Shown here in pieces: positions 3,005 through 51,543 of a stretch of 64,000 bases of DNA. Origin of the DNA: Burkholderiaceae bacterium (GTDB lineage Bacteria > Pseudomonadota > Gammaproteobacteria > Burkholderiales > Burkholderiaceae_C); NCBI GenBank assembly GCA_017992055.1, contig JAGOPK010000001.1:744001-808000 (forward strand). The letters are read 5' to 3'. Position numbers and translations under genes: made by a program. Each line of letters opens with the position of its first letter. The stretch's first letter is position 1. The notes below the pieces were generated by a model, which worked only from the letters and a program-made list of their open reading frames with translations, did no database searches and had not been told where the DNA came from.

Positions 3005-4258
3005 ATGCGCCGCCTGCCCCGCTTCCTGTCCGTCCTGCCCCTGGCGCTGCTGGCCGCCCAGGGCATCGCCCAACCCCAGCCCCAGCCGGATGCCACCCTG
3101 CTGGCCGCGGCCCGCGCCGCCCAGCCGGCCCTGCTGCAGACGCTGCGCGAGATGGTGGCCATCGAGTCCGGCACCATGGACGCGCCGGGCCTGGCGCGCA
3201 TGCTCGACGACGCCGAGCGCCGGCTCAAGGCCGTGGGCGCCACGGTTGAGCGCCGCCCCGGCGCCGCCGCCGGCACGCCCGAGGTGCTGCTGGGCCGGCT
3301 GGCCGGCACCGGCAAGCGCCGCATCCTGATGATGGCCCATCTGGACACCATCTACTGGCCTGGCGCGCTGAGCACCCAGCCGATCAAGGAAGAAGGCGGC
3401 AAGCTCTACGGTCCCGGCATCGCCGACGACAAGGGCGGCGCGGCCACCATCCTGCATGCGCTGCAGATCCTGCAGGCCGCCGGCTGGAAGGACTATGGCC
3501 AGATTACCGTGCTCTTCAATGCCGACGAAGAATCGGGCTCGCGTGGCTCGGGGGCGCTGATCGCCCAGCAGGCCGCCGAGCACGACGTGGTGCTGAGCTT
3601 CGAGCCCACCGCGGCGCCCGATCCCGGCGTGCTGCTGGCCGCCGCCGGCGTGGCCGAGCTCAAGCTCACGGTCAAGGGCCGGGCCGCGCATGCCGGCGCC
3701 GCGCCGCAGCTGGGCCGCAATGCGGCCATCGAGCTGTCGCACCAGGTGCTGCAGACGGCCGACATCGCCAAGGGCATCCCCGGCGCGCAGCTGAACTGGA
3801 CCACGCTGAGCGCCGGCAAGGTGCGCAACCAGATCCCCGATGCCGCCGAGGCCGGCGCCGACGTGCGCCTGACCGCGCCCGATGCCGCCGACAAGCTGCT
3901 GGCCGCGGTGCAGGCCAAGGTGGCCGAGAAGAAGGCCGTGCCCGACACCGAGGTGGCGGTGAGCCTGAACGTGGGCCGGCCGCCTTTTGTCGGCGATGTG
4001 CGCACCAGGGCCCTGGCCCAGCGCGCCCAGGCCATTGCCGCCGAGCTGGCGCCAGCCAAGCCGCTGTCGCTGCACCCGATCAGCGGTGGCGGCACCGATG
4101 CCGGCTTTGCCGCGCAGTCGGGCAAGGCCACGGTGCTGGAAAGCCTGGGCCTGCCCGGCTGGGGCTACCACGCCCGCGATGAATACATCGACATCGCGCA
4201 GGTCGTGCCGCGCCTGTACCTGGCGCTGCGGCTGCTAGTGGATCTGGGCAAGAACTGA
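3005..4258 (+). CDS. M20 family metallopeptidase, exported (carboxypeptidase G2-like)
   Basis: A 417-residue zinc peptidase with an N-terminal signal peptide (MRRLPRFLSVLPLALLAAQGIA). Metal and catalytic motifs are in order: MAHLDTIYWPG, GPGIADDKGG, FNADEESGSRGS, and the C-terminal HPISGGGTDAG. The insertion between them (TVKGRAAHAGAAPQLGRNA) is the M20 dimerisation lid. This pattern fits the glutamate carboxypeptidase/CPG2 branch, which cleaves C-terminal glutamate or similar residues in the periplasm. The start at 3005 is chosen because it gives a clean signal peptide and a five-base gap to the transporter. The partner transporter could move substrate or product, which is inference. Confidence 0.87.
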   Translation: MRRLPRFLSVLPLALLAAQGIAQPQPQPDATLLAAARAAQPALLQTLREMVAIESGTMDAPGLARMLDDAERRLKAVGATVERRPGAAAGTPEVLLGRLAGTGKRRILMMAHLDTIYWPGALSTQPIKEEGGKLYGPGIADDKGGAATILHALQILQAAGWKDYGQITVLFNADEESGSRGSGALIAQQAAEHDVVLSFEPTAAPDPGVLLAAAGVAELKLTVKGRAAHAGAAPQLGRNAAIELSHQVLQTADIAKGIPGAQLNWTTLSAGKVRNQIPDAAEAGADVRLTAPDAADKLLAAVQAKVAEKKAVPDTEVAVSLNVGRPPFVGDVRTRALAQRAQAIAAELAPAKPLSLHPISGGGTDAGFAAQSGKATVLESLGLPGWGYHARDEYIDIAQVVPRLYLALRLLVDLGKN

Positions 4259-4260
4259 GC

Positions 4261-4340
4261 GGGCCGAGCGCCGGGCCGCTCCCAAGCCGGCCCGCACCCG
4301 CCCGGCGGGTGGCCTCGCGTTCCCGCGAGGCCGGGTGCCC
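4261..4340 (-). repeat. Dispersed approximately 80-base hairpin repeat, copy A
   Basis: Read on the minus strand, this interval aligns along its whole length with 50589-50668 on the plus strand. It has three consecutive hairpins. The first has CTCGCG and CGCGAG arms with a four-base loop. The second is the near-perfect palindrome ACCCGCCGGGCGGGT. The third follows the shared GCTTGGGAGCGGCCCGGCG. It fills the space between two convergent genes (stops at 4258 and 4345) and may also act as a bidirectional terminator. Confidence 0.7.
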
Positions 4341-4344
4341 CAAC

Positions 4345-5184
4345 TCATTCTTTGAAGTACACGACCTGGTGCGTGGTGGCCAGCAGCTGGCCCTGCGCAT
4401 TCCACAGCTGGCCGCTGTGGTCGAAATAGCCGTGGTGGAAGGCCTGGCCCTGGGCCTGGGCCAGCAGATGGCCGGCGCCGCTGGCCGCCAGCAGGCCGCT
4501 GTCGGCATGGAAGTACACCGTCATCGACACCGTGCCCACCGGCACGCGGCGTGCGCGCCGCAGCCAGATGCGCGGAAAGAAGATGTCGGCCAGCGCCGCC
4601 AGCGAGCAGAAGTCCAGCGGCCGCGGCGGCGCATCGCGCACCCACAGCCGGCTCAGGCTGGGCTCGCCGCGGTCGTCCCAGTGCGCCGGGATGTGGCCGG
4701 CCAGCGGCCGCATGTCGTAGCAGGCCAGCCAGGCCACGGCGCCGGGCGGCGGCTGCACCGGCGCCACCGCGTCGGCCGGCGGCACCGTGGGCATGGGCAT
4801 GTCGCTGGCGCCCCAGGTGGCGCGCCGCGCGGCGGTGAACACCGTGGCCGTGGTCGCCACCTCGGGCCGGCCGTCGGCGTCGGGCTGGCTCAGCTCGACC
4901 ATCCAGTGCTGGGTGCTGCGGTTGGTGCGCACCGGCCGGGCCTCGATGCTGAACGGCGCATCGCCCACCGGGCCGGCGAAGTTGACGGTCAGCGACACCG
5001 GCTCGCCCAGGCGCTGCGGATGCAGCATCACCGCATTCAGCATCGTGGCGGCCGTGATGCCGCCATAGGGCCCGACCATGTTGCGCCACAGCGGATGGTT
5101 CTGGCCGGCAAAGTGGTCGCCGCCGGCGGGGCGCAGGGCGATGCCCTGGTCGAAGGGATGAGGTGCAGAGGACAGATCGGTCAT
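4345..5184 (-). CDS. Acyl-CoA thioesterase family protein (double hotdog)
   Basis: A 279-residue protein starting at the ATG at 5182-5184. The N-terminal half (MVGPYGGITAATMLNAVMLHP...LTVNFAGPVGDAPFSIEARPVR) is the TesB-like first hotdog with the glycine-rich GPYGG turn. The C-terminal half (VPVGTVSMTVYFHADSGLL...HGYFDHSGQLWNAQGQLLATTHQVVYFK) is the second hotdog. The length and two-domain layout match the thioesterase superfamily found next to acyl-CoA metabolism genes. It presumably hydrolyses an acyl-CoA, with chain length unknown. It ends against the hairpin repeat and is convergent with the M20 peptidase. The next gene on this strand ends 67 bases upstream. Confidence 0.8.
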   Translation of the reverse strand: MTDLSSAPHPFDQGIALRPAGGDHFAGQNHPLWRNMVGPYGGITAATMLNAVMLHPQRLGEPVSLTVNFAGPVGDAPFSIEARPVRTNRSTQHWMVELSQPDADGRPEVATTATVFTAARRATWGASDMPMPTVPPADAVAPVQPPPGAVAWLACYDMRPLAGHIPAHWDDRGEPSLSRLWVRDAPPRPLDFCSLAALADIFFPRIWLRRARRVPVGTVSMTVYFHADSGLLAASGAGHLLAQAQGQAFHHGYFDHSGQLWNAQGQLLATTHQVVYFKE

Positions 5185-23660: not shown

Positions 23661-23743
23661 GGCACGGCGCTCCAGGGGCTTGTGGGTACACGCCGGGGGC
23701 GGGGGGCCTGATGCCACTCACCCTCGGCAGGACGACTGCTGGG

Positions 23744-23872
23744 TGAGCGCGGTTGCAAAACCGGTGCTGGAGGCCGGGGCGGCCACAGCGGTTCGGCAGC
23801 GGTTTCGAGCCTGGGGCCACGCACTGTCCATGAAACCCATGGCAGCCGGCCTTGCAACGCTCCTCGAAACCA
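23744..23872 (-). promoter_or_regulatory. S-adenosylhomocysteine (SAH) riboswitch
   Basis: On the minus strand the leader carries the conserved GGTTTCGAGGAGCGTTGCAA block, then a variable hairpin, then CCCAGGCTCGAAACC, and finally TTGCAACCGCGCTCA. The first and second blocks pair as P1 (GGTTTCGAG with CTCGAAACC). GAGCGTTGCAA pairs with the TTGCAACCGCGCTC block as P2. Order and sequence match the SAH aptamer known from Ralstonia and other betaproteobacteria upstream of ahcY. SAH binding is expected to raise ahcY-metF expression. Confidence 0.92.
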
Positions 23873-48802: not shown

Positions 48803-49696
48803 ATGCTTTCGTTGATGCGCTGGCTATCCAGGCGCCATTTGTCAACTTTGCAGTTCTTCGGCGCCCTGCTGGGCTGGCTGGCCTATGCGCTGTCGGCCAG
48901 CTACCGCCAGCGTCTGGCGGCCCATGTGGCCCAGGCTGGCCTGGGCGCGGCGGTGCGCCGCCAGGCCGTGGCCGCGGCCGGCCGCATGGTGGCCGAGCTG
49001 CCCTGGCTGTGGCTGCGGCCGCAGCACCGCCCGCTGGCCGGCCTGGTGCGCTGGCAGGGCGAGGCGCTGATCGAGCAGGCCGCCGCACGCGGCCAGGGCC
49101 TGGTGCTGCTGACGCCGCACCTGGGCAGCTGGGAGGTCTGCGCCCAGGCGATTGCCGAGCGCTGGGGCGGCAGCGGCCTGCGCCTGACGGCGATGTACCG
49201 GCCGGCGCGCCAGCCCTGGCTGCGCGAGCTGGAGGAAACCGCCCGCGCCCGCCCGGGCCTGGCCACCGCGCCGGCGGCCCTGGCCGGCGTGCGCCAGATG
49301 ATCCGTGCGCTGCGCCGCGGCGAGGCCGTGGGCCTGCTGCCCGACCAGGTGCCGCCCGAGGGCATGGGCGTGTGGGCGCCGTTTTTCGGCCGTCCGGCCT
49401 ACACCATGACCCTGGCCGCGCGCCTGGTGCAGCAGACCGGCGCAGCCCTGCTGCTGATCTGGGCCGAGCGCCTGCCGCGTGGCGCCGGCTGGGTGCTGCG
49501 CGTCAGCTCGCCCGGCCTGCCCCTGCCGGCCACCGCCGCCGACGAGGCGGCGCTGCAGCAGGCCGGTGCGCTGATGGTGAACCAAGAGATGGAACGACTG
49601 ATCGCCCAATGCCCCGGCCAGTACCTGTGGGGCTACCACCGCTACAAGCAGCCGCGCCGCGTGCAGCCGGCCACCGGCGACGAGGTGGCGCCATGA
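48803..49696 (+). CDS. lpxL: Lipid A biosynthesis acyltransferase (LpxL/HtrB family)
   Basis: A 297-residue inner-membrane acyltransferase adding a secondary acyl chain to lipid A. A hydrophobic N-terminal anchor is followed by LLTPHLGSWEV, the catalytic H-x4-E, and LPDQVPPEGMGVWAPFFGRPAYTM. It ends QYLWGYHRYKQPR, the family's usual C-terminus. Its stop overlaps the start of a second acyltransferase gene (ATGA). Confidence 0.9.
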   Translation: MLSLMRWLSRRHLSTLQFFGALLGWLAYALSASYRQRLAAHVAQAGLGAAVRRQAVAAAGRMVAELPWLWLRPQHRPLAGLVRWQGEALIEQAAARGQGLVLLTPHLGSWEVCAQAIAERWGGSGLRLTAMYRPARQPWLRELEETARARPGLATAPAALAGVRQMIRALRRGEAVGLLPDQVPPEGMGVWAPFFGRPAYTMTLAARLVQQTGAALLLIWAERLPRGAGWVLRVSSPGLPLPATAADEAALQQAGALMVNQEMERLIAQCPGQYLWGYHRYKQPRRVQPATGDEVAP

Positions 49697-50586
49697 TGCA
49701 GCGCTGGCTGGCCCAGGCCCTGCTGGGCCTGTTGCGCGGCCTGCAGGCGCTGCCGCTGGGCCTGCAGGCGGCGCTGGGGCGCGGCCTGGGCGCGCTGCTG
49801 TACCGCCTGGCCGGCTCGCGCCGCCGCGTGGCGCTGCGCAATCTGCAGCTGTGCTTTCCCGAGCTGGATGCGGCGGCCCGCGAGGCGCTGGCGCGCCGGC
49901 ATTTCGGCTGGGTGGCGCGCAGCCTGCTGGAGCGTGGCCTGCTGTGGTTTGCCTCGCCGCAGCGCCTCCAGCAACTGATCCAGGTCGAGGGCGCGGTCGA
50001 CTGGGCCCAGCGCCATCCGGACCGGCCGGTGATGTGGCTGGTGCCGCACTTCGTCGCGCTCGATGTCGCCGGTGTCGCCACCCAGCTGTTCCAGACCCGG
50101 CCGGTGGCCTCGATCTACCAGGCGCAGAGCAATCCGGTGTTCGACGCGGCGATGCGCCAGGGCCGCATCCGCTTCGGCCTGGCGCGGGTGTTCGCGCGCA
50201 GCGAGCGGGCGCTGCCGCTGGTGCGCGCCATCCGCCAGGGCGATGTGTTCTTCAACCTGCCGGACATGGACTTCGGCGCCAAGGACGCGGCCTTCGTGCC
50301 GTTTTTCGGCGTCGATGCCGCCACGCTGCTGGCGCCGGCGCGCATGGCGCGCTCGCTGGGCATGGTGGTGCAGCCGGTGGTGGCCGAGATGCTGGACGGC
50401 GGCGCCGGCTACCGCGTGCGCTTTCTGGAGCCCTGGACCGACTTTCCCGGTGCCGACGACGACGAGGCTGCGGCGCGACGCATGAACGCCTGGATCGAGG
50501 CCGAGATCCGCCGCAACCCGGCGCAGTACCTGTGGGTGCACAAGCGCTTCAAGACCCGGCCGCCCGGCGCGCCCGGTCTGTATTGA
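49693..50586 (+). CDS. Lipid A biosynthesis acyltransferase, second copy
   Basis: A 297-residue paralogue of the preceding gene. N-terminal hydrophobic segment, RRVALRNLQLCFPELD, WLVPHFVALDVAG (catalytic H-x4-D), NLPDMDFGAKDAAFVPFFG and QYLWVHKRFKTRP are all typical. It starts at ATGATG overlapping the first gene's stop, so the pair is coupled. The two probably add different secondary chains, as in other Burkholderiales; chain length cannot be read here. Confidence 0.9.
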   Translation: MMQRWLAQALLGLLRGLQALPLGLQAALGRGLGALLYRLAGSRRRVALRNLQLCFPELDAAAREALARRHFGWVARSLLERGLLWFASPQRLQQLIQVEGAVDWAQRHPDRPVMWLVPHFVALDVAGVATQLFQTRPVASIYQAQSNPVFDAAMRQGRIRFGLARVFARSERALPLVRAIRQGDVFFNLPDMDFGAKDAAFVPFFGVDAATLLAPARMARSLGMVVQPVVAEMLDGGAGYRVRFLEPWTDFPGADDDEAAARRMNAWIEAEIRRNPAQYLWVHKRFKTRPPGAPGLY

Positions 50587-50588
50587 CG

Positions 50589-50668
50589 GCACCCGGTCTT
50601 GCGGGTACGCAAGCCCACCCGCCGGGCGGGTACGCGGCCCGCTTGGGAGCGGCCCGGCGCCGGGCCGC
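50589..50668 (+). repeat. Dispersed approximately 80-base hairpin repeat, copy B
   Basis: Aligns with the complement of 4261-4340 over its full length. Hairpin one has CTTGCG and CGCAAG arms; against copy A, a C-G pair has become T-A on both sides, which is covariation. Hairpin two is the palindrome ACCCGCCGGGCGGGT. Hairpin three, GCGGCCCGGC and GCCGGGCCGC, is perfect here. It fills the gap between the second acyltransferase and dapF. Confidence 0.7.
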
Positions 50669-50688
50669 GCGCAGCGGATAATCGGGCC

Positions 50689-51543
50689 ATGCGACTGAAG
50701 TTCACCAAGATGCAGGGCGCGGGCAACGACTTCGTCGTGCTCGACGCCACGCGCGCGCCGCTGGAGCTGACGCGCGACCAGCTGCGCCGCCTGGGCGACC
50801 GGCGCTTCGGCGTCGGCGCCGACCAGATCCTGCTGGTCGAGCCGGCGCGCAGCGACGACGTGGATTTCCGCTACCGCATCTTCAACAACACCGGCGACGA
50901 GGTCGAGCACTGCGGCAACGGCGCGCGCTGCTTTGTGCGCTACGTGCACGGCCACGGCCTGACCGACAAGCGCAGCGTGCGCGTGGAAACCGTCAACAAC
51001 CGGCTCGAGCTGCGCCTGCAGGACGATGGCCGGGTGACGGTGGACATGAACCGGCCGATCTTCGAGCACGAGCGGCTGCCGTTCCGCTCGGCCGGCCTGA
51101 GCCCGCGCACCGAGGGCGGCTTCGAGCTGTGGCCGCTGGACATCGGCGAAGGCCGCCAGGTCGAGGTGGCGGTGCTGTCCATGGGCAATCCGCATGCGGT
51201 GCAGCGCGTGGCCGATGTGCGCGAGGCGCCGGTCGACCTGCTGGGCCCGCTGGTCGAGCACCATGCGCGCTTTGCGCGCCGCGTCAATGCCGGCTTCATG
51301 CAGGTGCTGTCGCGCAGCGAGATCGCGCTGCGCGTCTGGGAACGCGATGCCGGCGAGACCCTGGCCTGTGGCACCGGTGCCTGCGCGGCGGTGGTCGCCG
51401 GCATCCGCCTGGGCTGGCTGGACCGGCGCGTGGATGTGCAGGCCCGTGGCGGCCTGCTGACCATCGAATGGCCGGCCGACGACGCCGGCGTGCTGATGAC
51501 CGGGCCGGCCGAGACGGTCTACGAAGGGGAAATCGAGCTGTGA
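50689..51543 (+). CDS. dapF: Diaminopimelate epimerase
   Basis: A 284-residue cofactor-free epimerase converting LL- to meso-diaminopimelate for lysine and peptidoglycan. The first catalytic cysteine is Cys75 in [10 protein letters not shown] and the second is in [24 protein letters not shown] at the N-terminus and SMGNPHAV are family blocks. The ATG at 50689 gives the canonical start. The stop overlaps the next gene's GTG. Confidence 0.97.

Follow-up and report, generated by a model that had tools for sequence, protein, structure and literature searches.

A dispersed three-hairpin repeat docked at gene boundaries in Burkholderiaceae, very probably a Beta-proteobacterial repeat element or a member of its superfamily

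INTRODUCTION

Bacterial genomes commonly contain short palindromic repeats, and how these spread and what they do are old open questions. Both are raised by a stretch of 64,000 nt from a Burkholderiaceae genome, here called the window. A preliminary description had pointed to two intergenic intervals in opposite orientation, alignable as three successive hairpins, and had suggested a dispersed palindromic repeat family, possibly with a RAYT-type transposase or an RNA role. Is there such a family, where do its members sit relative to genes, and what moves them? A similar repeat was described in 2011, and the strict placement and pairing-preserving changes reported below make the job of the element testable.

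RESULTS

Two copies in the window

Genes were called with a codon-usage caller trained on the window, and these calls confirm that both copies are intergenic (Table 1). The two intervals align in opposite orientation as claimed, over ~84 nt, and copy B is 88% identical to copy A in a blastn search of the host genome with copy A. Copy A lies in an 86-nt gap with convergent genes on both sides; it has the mRNA sense of the thioesterase gene and fills the spacer between the two convergent stop codons. Copy B is contained in the 102-nt gap before dapF, between the upstream stop codon and the GATAAT of dapF, and its first base is the last base of the acyltransferase stop codon. The head of copy B is ACGGCACCC, compared with GGGGCACCC in copy A. 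A search of the window for a third match to the covariance model R1 (see below) gave a best remaining score of only 20.9 bits (E 0.089).

Table 1. Positions of the two window copies, their parts and the adjoining genes.
Feature	Position	Strand	Basis or remark
Peptidase M20 gene, convergent to copy A	3005..4258	+	
Copy A, whole element, type I	4258..4341	-	R1 covariance-model match 75.1 bits, alignment A2
Copy A hairpin 3, variable outer stem around conserved CTTGGGAGCGGCCCGGCG	4260..4294	-	alignment A2
Copy A hairpin 2, ACCCGC-CGG-GCGGGT	4296..4310	-	alignment A2
Copy A hairpin 1, 9 pairs and tetraloop	4311..4332	-	alignment A2
Copy A head GGGGCACCC	4333..4341	-	3 nt past stop codon (4345-4347)
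Acyl-CoA thioesterase gene (PF20789, PF13622), 3' end adjoins copy A	4345..5184	-	
Lipid A biosynthesis acyltransferase gene (PF03279), 3' end adjoins copy B	49693..50586	+	
Copy B, whole element, type I	50586..50670	+	R1 covariance-model match 79.3 bits
Copy B hairpin 1	50595..50616	+	alignment A2
Copy B hairpin 2	50617..50631	+	alignment A2
Copy B hairpin 3	50633..50669	+	alignment A2
GATAAT, kept just 5' of dapF across the genus	50677..50682	+	17/17 loci
dapF (PF01678)	50689..51543	+	

The GATAAT hexamer stands 6-9 nt 5' of the dapF start codon at every one of 17 loci in the genus (window 50677-50691 and 16 orthologues; a partial locus in genome G002 was left out), which suggests a nearly leaderless dapF transcript. 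Elsewhere in the window, an SAH riboswitch (RF01057) at 23738-23871 on the reverse strand scores 47.5 bits, above the gathering score.

Architecture and covariation

In the orientation of the preceding gene the element consists of a head, hairpin 1 with a GGTA-like loop, hairpin 2 and hairpin 3, so that the three successive hairpins described for the window copies are upheld by the alignment. Hairpin 2 of the window copies is ACCCGC-loop-GCGGGT. In hairpin 3 the outer stem varies, whereas its centre is a conserved CTTGGG(A)GCGGCCCGGCG, also written CTTGGG..CGGCCCGGCG, in which TTGGG can pair with CCCGG. The element measures 82-86 nt in 23 of 24 host copies, the remaining copy being 99 nt long with an insert.

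The preliminary description had noted a compensatory pair in hairpin 1, and this pair is indeed C-G in copy A and T-A in copy B; another pair of the same hairpin is C-G in copy A and an unpaired T/C in copy B. Beyond these two copies, alignment A2 (a MAFFT alignment of 23 copies from the host genome, L019 left out, on which the structure was drawn by hand) has 94.1% of its cells paired and double changes at 14 of 30 pairs. Alignments A3 and A4 lean toward the covariance model because they were fitted to it; in A3 (68 copies from other genomes) 96.8% of cells are paired, both sides have changed at 23 of 30 pairs, and there are 341 double-change cells compared with 84.5 in shuffles, while A4 (90 further copies) has 96.2% paired, 23 of 30 pairs doubly changed and 309 double-change cells. 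None of 500 shuffles matches any pairing or covariation measure of A2, A3 or A4, and a control with slid partners yields 32-50% pairing. Structure-keeping substitution, as first proposed, is therefore borne out in all three alignments, and the possibility that relatives would lack covariation is excluded. Hairpin 2 is invariant in A2, and differs between subfamilies with its pairing kept: the arms are ACCCGC/GCGGGT in type I, ATCCCC/GGGGAT in type II and ACCCCC/GGGGGT in type III.

Template-switch repair can also yield compensatory change in palindromes. When each copy is folded alone, copy A exceeds its shuffles in stability on either strand (z -3.1 and -2.2); copy B barely does so (z -1.0 and -0.4), which counts against the explanation we prefer. 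The head may alternatively pair with the 3' arm of hairpin 2, as at least 4 complementary bases occur in 165 of 166 classed copies and in 12 of 178 unclassed ones, but this is weak evidence for a switch because the variation occurs between subfamilies only.

Some copies carry inserts in hairpin 3 or between hairpins 2 and 3 (L019, L041, L116), and partial forms also exist: L030 retains a recognizable hairpin 1 only and L361 is without hairpin 1. The short L361 copies, from a metagenome-assembled genome (MAG) labelled as Bordetella, look as if hairpin 1 had been lost when the head recombined with the 5' arm of hairpin 2, both of which carry the same C-rich word.

Copy number and host range

A blastn search of the 5.9-Mb host genome with copy A finds 28 places at an E-value of 6e-9 or better, and R1, built from 23 of the host's own copies, has 30 matches at E <= 0.001. 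The suggested dispersed family of palindromic repeats is thus real, and it is not confined to the two copies of the window. R1 matches occur in 18 of 40 genomes (the host included), all 18 among the 21 genomes of the host's genus, where counts range from 0 to a maximum of 89 in G012. They also occur in 53 of 150 genomes of the host family and in 3 of 300 genomes of the order (the host, one from the same family and one from another), the last figure being an underestimate because only 15 candidates were scored per genome.

A looser DNA pattern reaches further, with 44 of at least 80 listed loci taken forward. Among the matches listed are Bordetella (the MAG), Achromobacter, Pigmentiphaga, Burkholderia, Paraburkholderia, Trinickia, Delftia, Polaromonas, Rhodoferax, Variovorax, Acidovorax, Rhodocyclaceae and Methylotenera, and the hairpin 3 core is common to named hosts of several families. 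The MAG bears the label 'Bordetella parapertussis', possibly in error; it has 74 matches to its own copy, many of them in tandem. The element has a GC content of 0.67-0.90.

Searches with one type II query found no match at 1e-5 in plasmids and phages, and only weak, chance-like matches at a limit of 10 (best-ranked E 0.8); one type I query had no match in plasmids. A Burkholderia-type copy, however, matches 14 plasmid records at E <= 1e-5, including replicons of Burkholderia, Paraburkholderia, Variovorax and Azoarcus, and a restriction to chromosomes therefore fails for the wider family.

Type I copies follow stop codons

The 30 host matches include 26 of the canonical type I, of which 25 lie in sense orientation and start between -2 and 7 nt past the stop codon of a same-strand gene; at the 26th the called gene extends 46 nt into the element. 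Under random placement in the spacers of contig C17 the fraction docked at a stop would be 0.022-0.19, depending on weighting. Three of the other four host matches adjoin the start of an opposite-strand gene and one adjoins a stop. The neighbouring gene is convergent for 18 of the 26 type I copies, against 0.08-0.17 expected at random. Between convergent genes the head is nearer to its own gene than the tail is to the other in 15 of 17 host copies (L083 left out) and in 21 of 27 other loci, these being 29 flush convergent loci minus two with tails of more than 1.2 kb, both with the head nearer.

Similar placement is seen outside the host. In a further set (6 of 90 matches left out) 54 of 60 loci are flush, and 68 matches from the family and genus divide into 51 flush, 15 far and 2 undetermined. 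Two of eight plasmid records are annotated at the site, and both agree in having the match after an annotated stop, in sense: in Variovorax WDL1 the order is gnd-element-zwf with the blastn match beginning 2 nt after gnd, and in Variovorax PBL-E5 the match lies 15 nt after the stop, between two ABC transporter genes. Docking is weaker in a broader set of named hosts, where 20 of 59 copies lie within 20 nt of a stop compared with 7.6% expected (94 placements, of which 35 covered by noisy gene calls were set aside).

Type II copies adjoin start codons

The type II head is CCCCTCG. Among 57 type II copies, 40 adjoin the start codon of an opposite-strand frame of at least 80 codons, 14 adjoin a stop codon, and 51 have at least one of the two; many lie between co-directional genes. 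In 35 of the 40 start-docked copies the element's GAGGGG is separated from the start codon by exactly 5 nt, whereas random positions at the same loci fall at a start in 21% of cases and at exactly 5 nt in 2.2%. Type II elements thus appear to supply a ribosome site, and the spacing suggests that it may be used. Start docking may be due in part to the element's own letters: part of the CAT may belong to the head, since several type II copies that lack a start there nevertheless have ATG at that position, and the tandem junctions of the Bordetella-labelled MAG repeatedly show CATG.

Turnover and insertion marks

Matching sites differ in occupancy between related genomes. Upstream of dapF, only the host has an R1 match (1 of 17 loci); G012, its nearest relative, has what by eye is a decayed remnant of hairpin 3, and the match of G005 and of G003 (L137, L138) is not before dapF but shortly after it. 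The pair of thioesterase and M20 peptidase genes flanking copy A is shared with G012 and G011 (16 loci compared). G012 has a 40-nt spacer and no element there, and G011 has a type III element in the same orientation directly behind the stop (R1, 34.1 bits). Hairpin 3 of this G011 element (L451, ~1360-1496) is interrupted in its apical part by an insert rich in hairpins. Both flanks of 8 of 41 G012 loci were found in the host DNA fetched, and none of the 8 is filled in the host; at one of the G012 loci (L146) an 83 nt element separates convergent stops that are adjacent in the host.

Tandem arrays of 2-4 units with a period of 80-90 nt occur in G012. In one array (L180, ~1590-1842) each unit includes the bases AGGTGAATGG of the adjoining gene end, so that the stop-codon region must have been duplicated as well.

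At 103 single-copy loci the mean common word of the two flanks is 3.53 compared with 3.40 in shuffles (p 0.058), and 17 loci share at least 5 flank bases where 10.6 are expected, a marginal and unconvincing excess. An earlier positive signal for a target-site duplication came largely from tandem neighbours, and it is the exclusion of arrays that leaves this p-value. The short direct repeat at both flanks that marks a MITE (TIR plus target-site duplication) is thus not clearly seen.

Y1_Tnp genes and the element

The host genome has a single match to the Y1_Tnp domain, a lone gene at 1408-2145 of locus L031 (contig C17, outside the window) beside a gene that, from its translation, we take to be gltB-like. 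We examined the RAYT flanks in the host genome and found no element copy in the 3.2 kb around this gene (best E 6.1), so the proposed link to a RAYT-type transposase is not supported. Nor is a conserved tetramer such as the GTAG or CGTC tag present at the hairpin foot in 23 aligned host copies.

Of the 150 family genomes, 112 have a Y1_Tnp match. R1 and Y1_Tnp are found together in 31 genomes, R1 alone in 22, Y1_Tnp alone in 81 and neither in 16, a negative association (odds ratio 0.28, p 0.0014) whose p-value is only a guide because the genomes are related. A Y1_Tnp match is thus missing from 22 of the 53 element-bearing genomes, and from 11 of the 23 with at least 5 copies. Draft assemblies may miss a gene, but G091 is a one-contig genome with 26 copies and no Y1_Tnp match. 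Another family member, G050, has 20 Y1_Tnp matches, several of them broken at one common point into two neighbouring pieces, but lacks any R1 match.

DISCUSSION

The element occurs in many copies, is present or absent at matching sites, forms tandem arrays, keeps its hairpins by compensatory change and has its head docked at a gene boundary. The reading that we put forward, with belief and doubt about evenly balanced, is a mobile three-hairpin module like the Beta-proteobacterial repeat element (BRE) that forms structured mRNA ends and is spread by an enzyme other than a RAYT. Type I copies, whose heads follow stop codons in sense and mostly between convergent genes, would form 3'-UTRs; type II copies, whose heads mostly adjoin a start codon with a Shine-Dalgarno-like GAGGGG before it, would sometimes form 5'-UTRs. 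Copies would spread through the non-RAYT enzyme and be tolerated, or kept, where they become a structured mRNA end. There the GC-rich hairpins would block 3'-exonucleases and part convergent transcripts, as is supposed for REP elements, a putative barrier function that we propose from the sequence. Placement in sense 3'-UTRs and covariation are consistent with the possible RNA role mentioned in the preliminary description.

What else could account for these observations? A purely selfish miniature element would have no host function, and its docking would reflect target choice, with an insertion machinery that recognizes stop- or start-codon-like sequence or 3' ends, together with the survival of harmless insertions. 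We consider this possible, if on balance unlikely. Tandem arrays, copy numbers that vary so unevenly within one genus and high turnover between sister species all fit; this turnover is no less an argument for selfish spread than for function. Compensatory change at most pairs and a hairpin 3 core shared across families suggest more than decaying insertions, a clear target-site duplication is lacking, and two species have the copy A site occupied by elements that differ in subfamily but share their orientation. That the copies form a family of intrinsic transcription terminators seems to us distinctly improbable. Their position directly behind stop codons and mostly between convergent genes would suit terminators, as would copy B just before the promoter-like hexamer of dapF, but at neither window copy did a terminator scan find a hairpin followed by a T-run, the tails of the host copies are GC-rich, and type II copies lie directly upstream of start codons.

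We regard mobilization by a RAYT, which would make the element a REP/REPIN family, as very improbable indeed. The copies are palindromic and intergenic, prefer 3' ends as REPs do (PMC3733652, accessible text), and share their genome with one Y1_Tnp match; against this, they are 84 nt rather than 20-40 nt long and keep no GTAG or CGTC tag at the foot, and the absence of Y1_Tnp from many element-bearing genomes, the negative association and the lack of flanking copies largely refute such a mobilizer. A bolder extension of the structured-end reading, which we think doubtful, is a portable RNA module for gene boundaries: a non-RAYT scaffold with stop and start docking and its own ribosome site that would act as a mobile translation switch and rewire operons. 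Since an arm of hairpin 2 is the complement of GAGGGG, which stands at a fixed distance from the start, the module could act as such a switch.

The family yields precise predictions, namely a near-fixed distance to the stop or start, a hairpin 3 core across Betaproteobacteria, filled and empty sites, and no RAYT. These features allow placement by function to be separated from placement by insertion chemistry, and the branch docked at starts would represent a naturally occurring, portable module for ribosome binding.

Comparison with known repeat families

The window copies have no match in Rfam at the gathering threshold, and with relaxed limits nothing comes near gathering for copy A, one Bordetella-type pair or one type II copy; membership of an Rfam family was rejected on this basis. 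ERIC, NEMIS/Correia and RUP are small non-coding dispersed repeats able to fold. They are cited as a group in the accessible text of PMC3110155, and the present element, with no clear target-site duplication, is set apart from them by description, not by sequence.

REPs resemble the element in being palindromic, dispersed and near 3' ends. As far as the available text of PMC3733652 goes, most conv-REPs of the diagrammed species are <20 bp away from the 3' end of a flanking ORF, REPs are found mainly between convergent or co-directional ORFs, and some near ORF 5' ends were proposed as post-transcriptional control elements. The element likewise lies near 3' ends and seldom between divergent genes, and it shares with CGTC REPs the lack of a dedicated transposase (PMC3733652; PMC2817692, both from the accessible text). 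Docking as such is therefore not new. Unlike REPs, the element has three different hairpins rather than one, no GTAG/CGTC tag, a single fixed orientation to the upstream gene, and a subfamily docked at starts in which a sequence like a ribosome site keeps a fixed distance. In the accessible literature on BRE and REPs we found no account of a fixed orientation, a three-hairpin scaffold or a start-docked subfamily with a ribosome site of its own.

The closest likeness is to BRE, named by Hot et al. (2011; PMC3110155) from one Bordetella sRNA locus, with its type copy at 3605317-3605401 of B. pertussis Tohama I. The accessible text of that paper describes repeats of ~90 bp (75-91 bp, partial copies of 40-60 bp), mostly intergenic and high in GC, with a transcribed locus of discovery and a function given as unknown; the hosts are Bordetella, Polaromonas, Delftia, Rhodoferax, Acidovorax and Azoarcus. 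The same text reports tandem copies with few spacer bases, in arrays that vary between relatives. Searches of the literature for the BRE name returned, beyond PMC3110155, a lone mention of 'bprJ2', and those for the sequence strings of the element no relevant match. Some differences stand out. The parts of PMC3110155 available to us describe no hairpin covariation, docking rule or subfamilies; they place some BREs wholly inside coding sequences and all on chromosomes only, whereas relatives of the present element are also on secondary replicons. Both are high in GC, the element mostly above the BRE average of ~69% (63.7-78.9%; PMC3110155, accessible text). Within ~1.5 kb at lexA, which is BRE locus 3 of Hot et al., no core was found in the Bordetella-labelled MAG or in five Achromobacter and Pigmentiphaga genomes, a result that says little about identity with BRE.

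The agreement is nevertheless broad. Of the 24 host copies measured, 23 fall in the BRE length range, partial forms exist as in BRE, and tandem arrays occur in G012 and the Bordetella-labelled MAG. Like BRE, the element has hosts in Bordetella, Comamonadaceae and Rhodocyclaceae (PMC3110155, accessible text): the matches listed include the Bordetella-labelled MAG, Polaromonas, Delftia, Rhodoferax, Acidovorax and Rhodocyclaceae, with Azoarcus represented by a plasmid, an agreement at the level of genus and family labels rather than of the strains in Hot's table. The element is very probably BRE or its superfamily, matched by the description of BRE and not by its letters. In all likelihood, it belongs to a Betaproteobacteria-wide family of ~84-nt non-coding repeats of which BRE was the first description.
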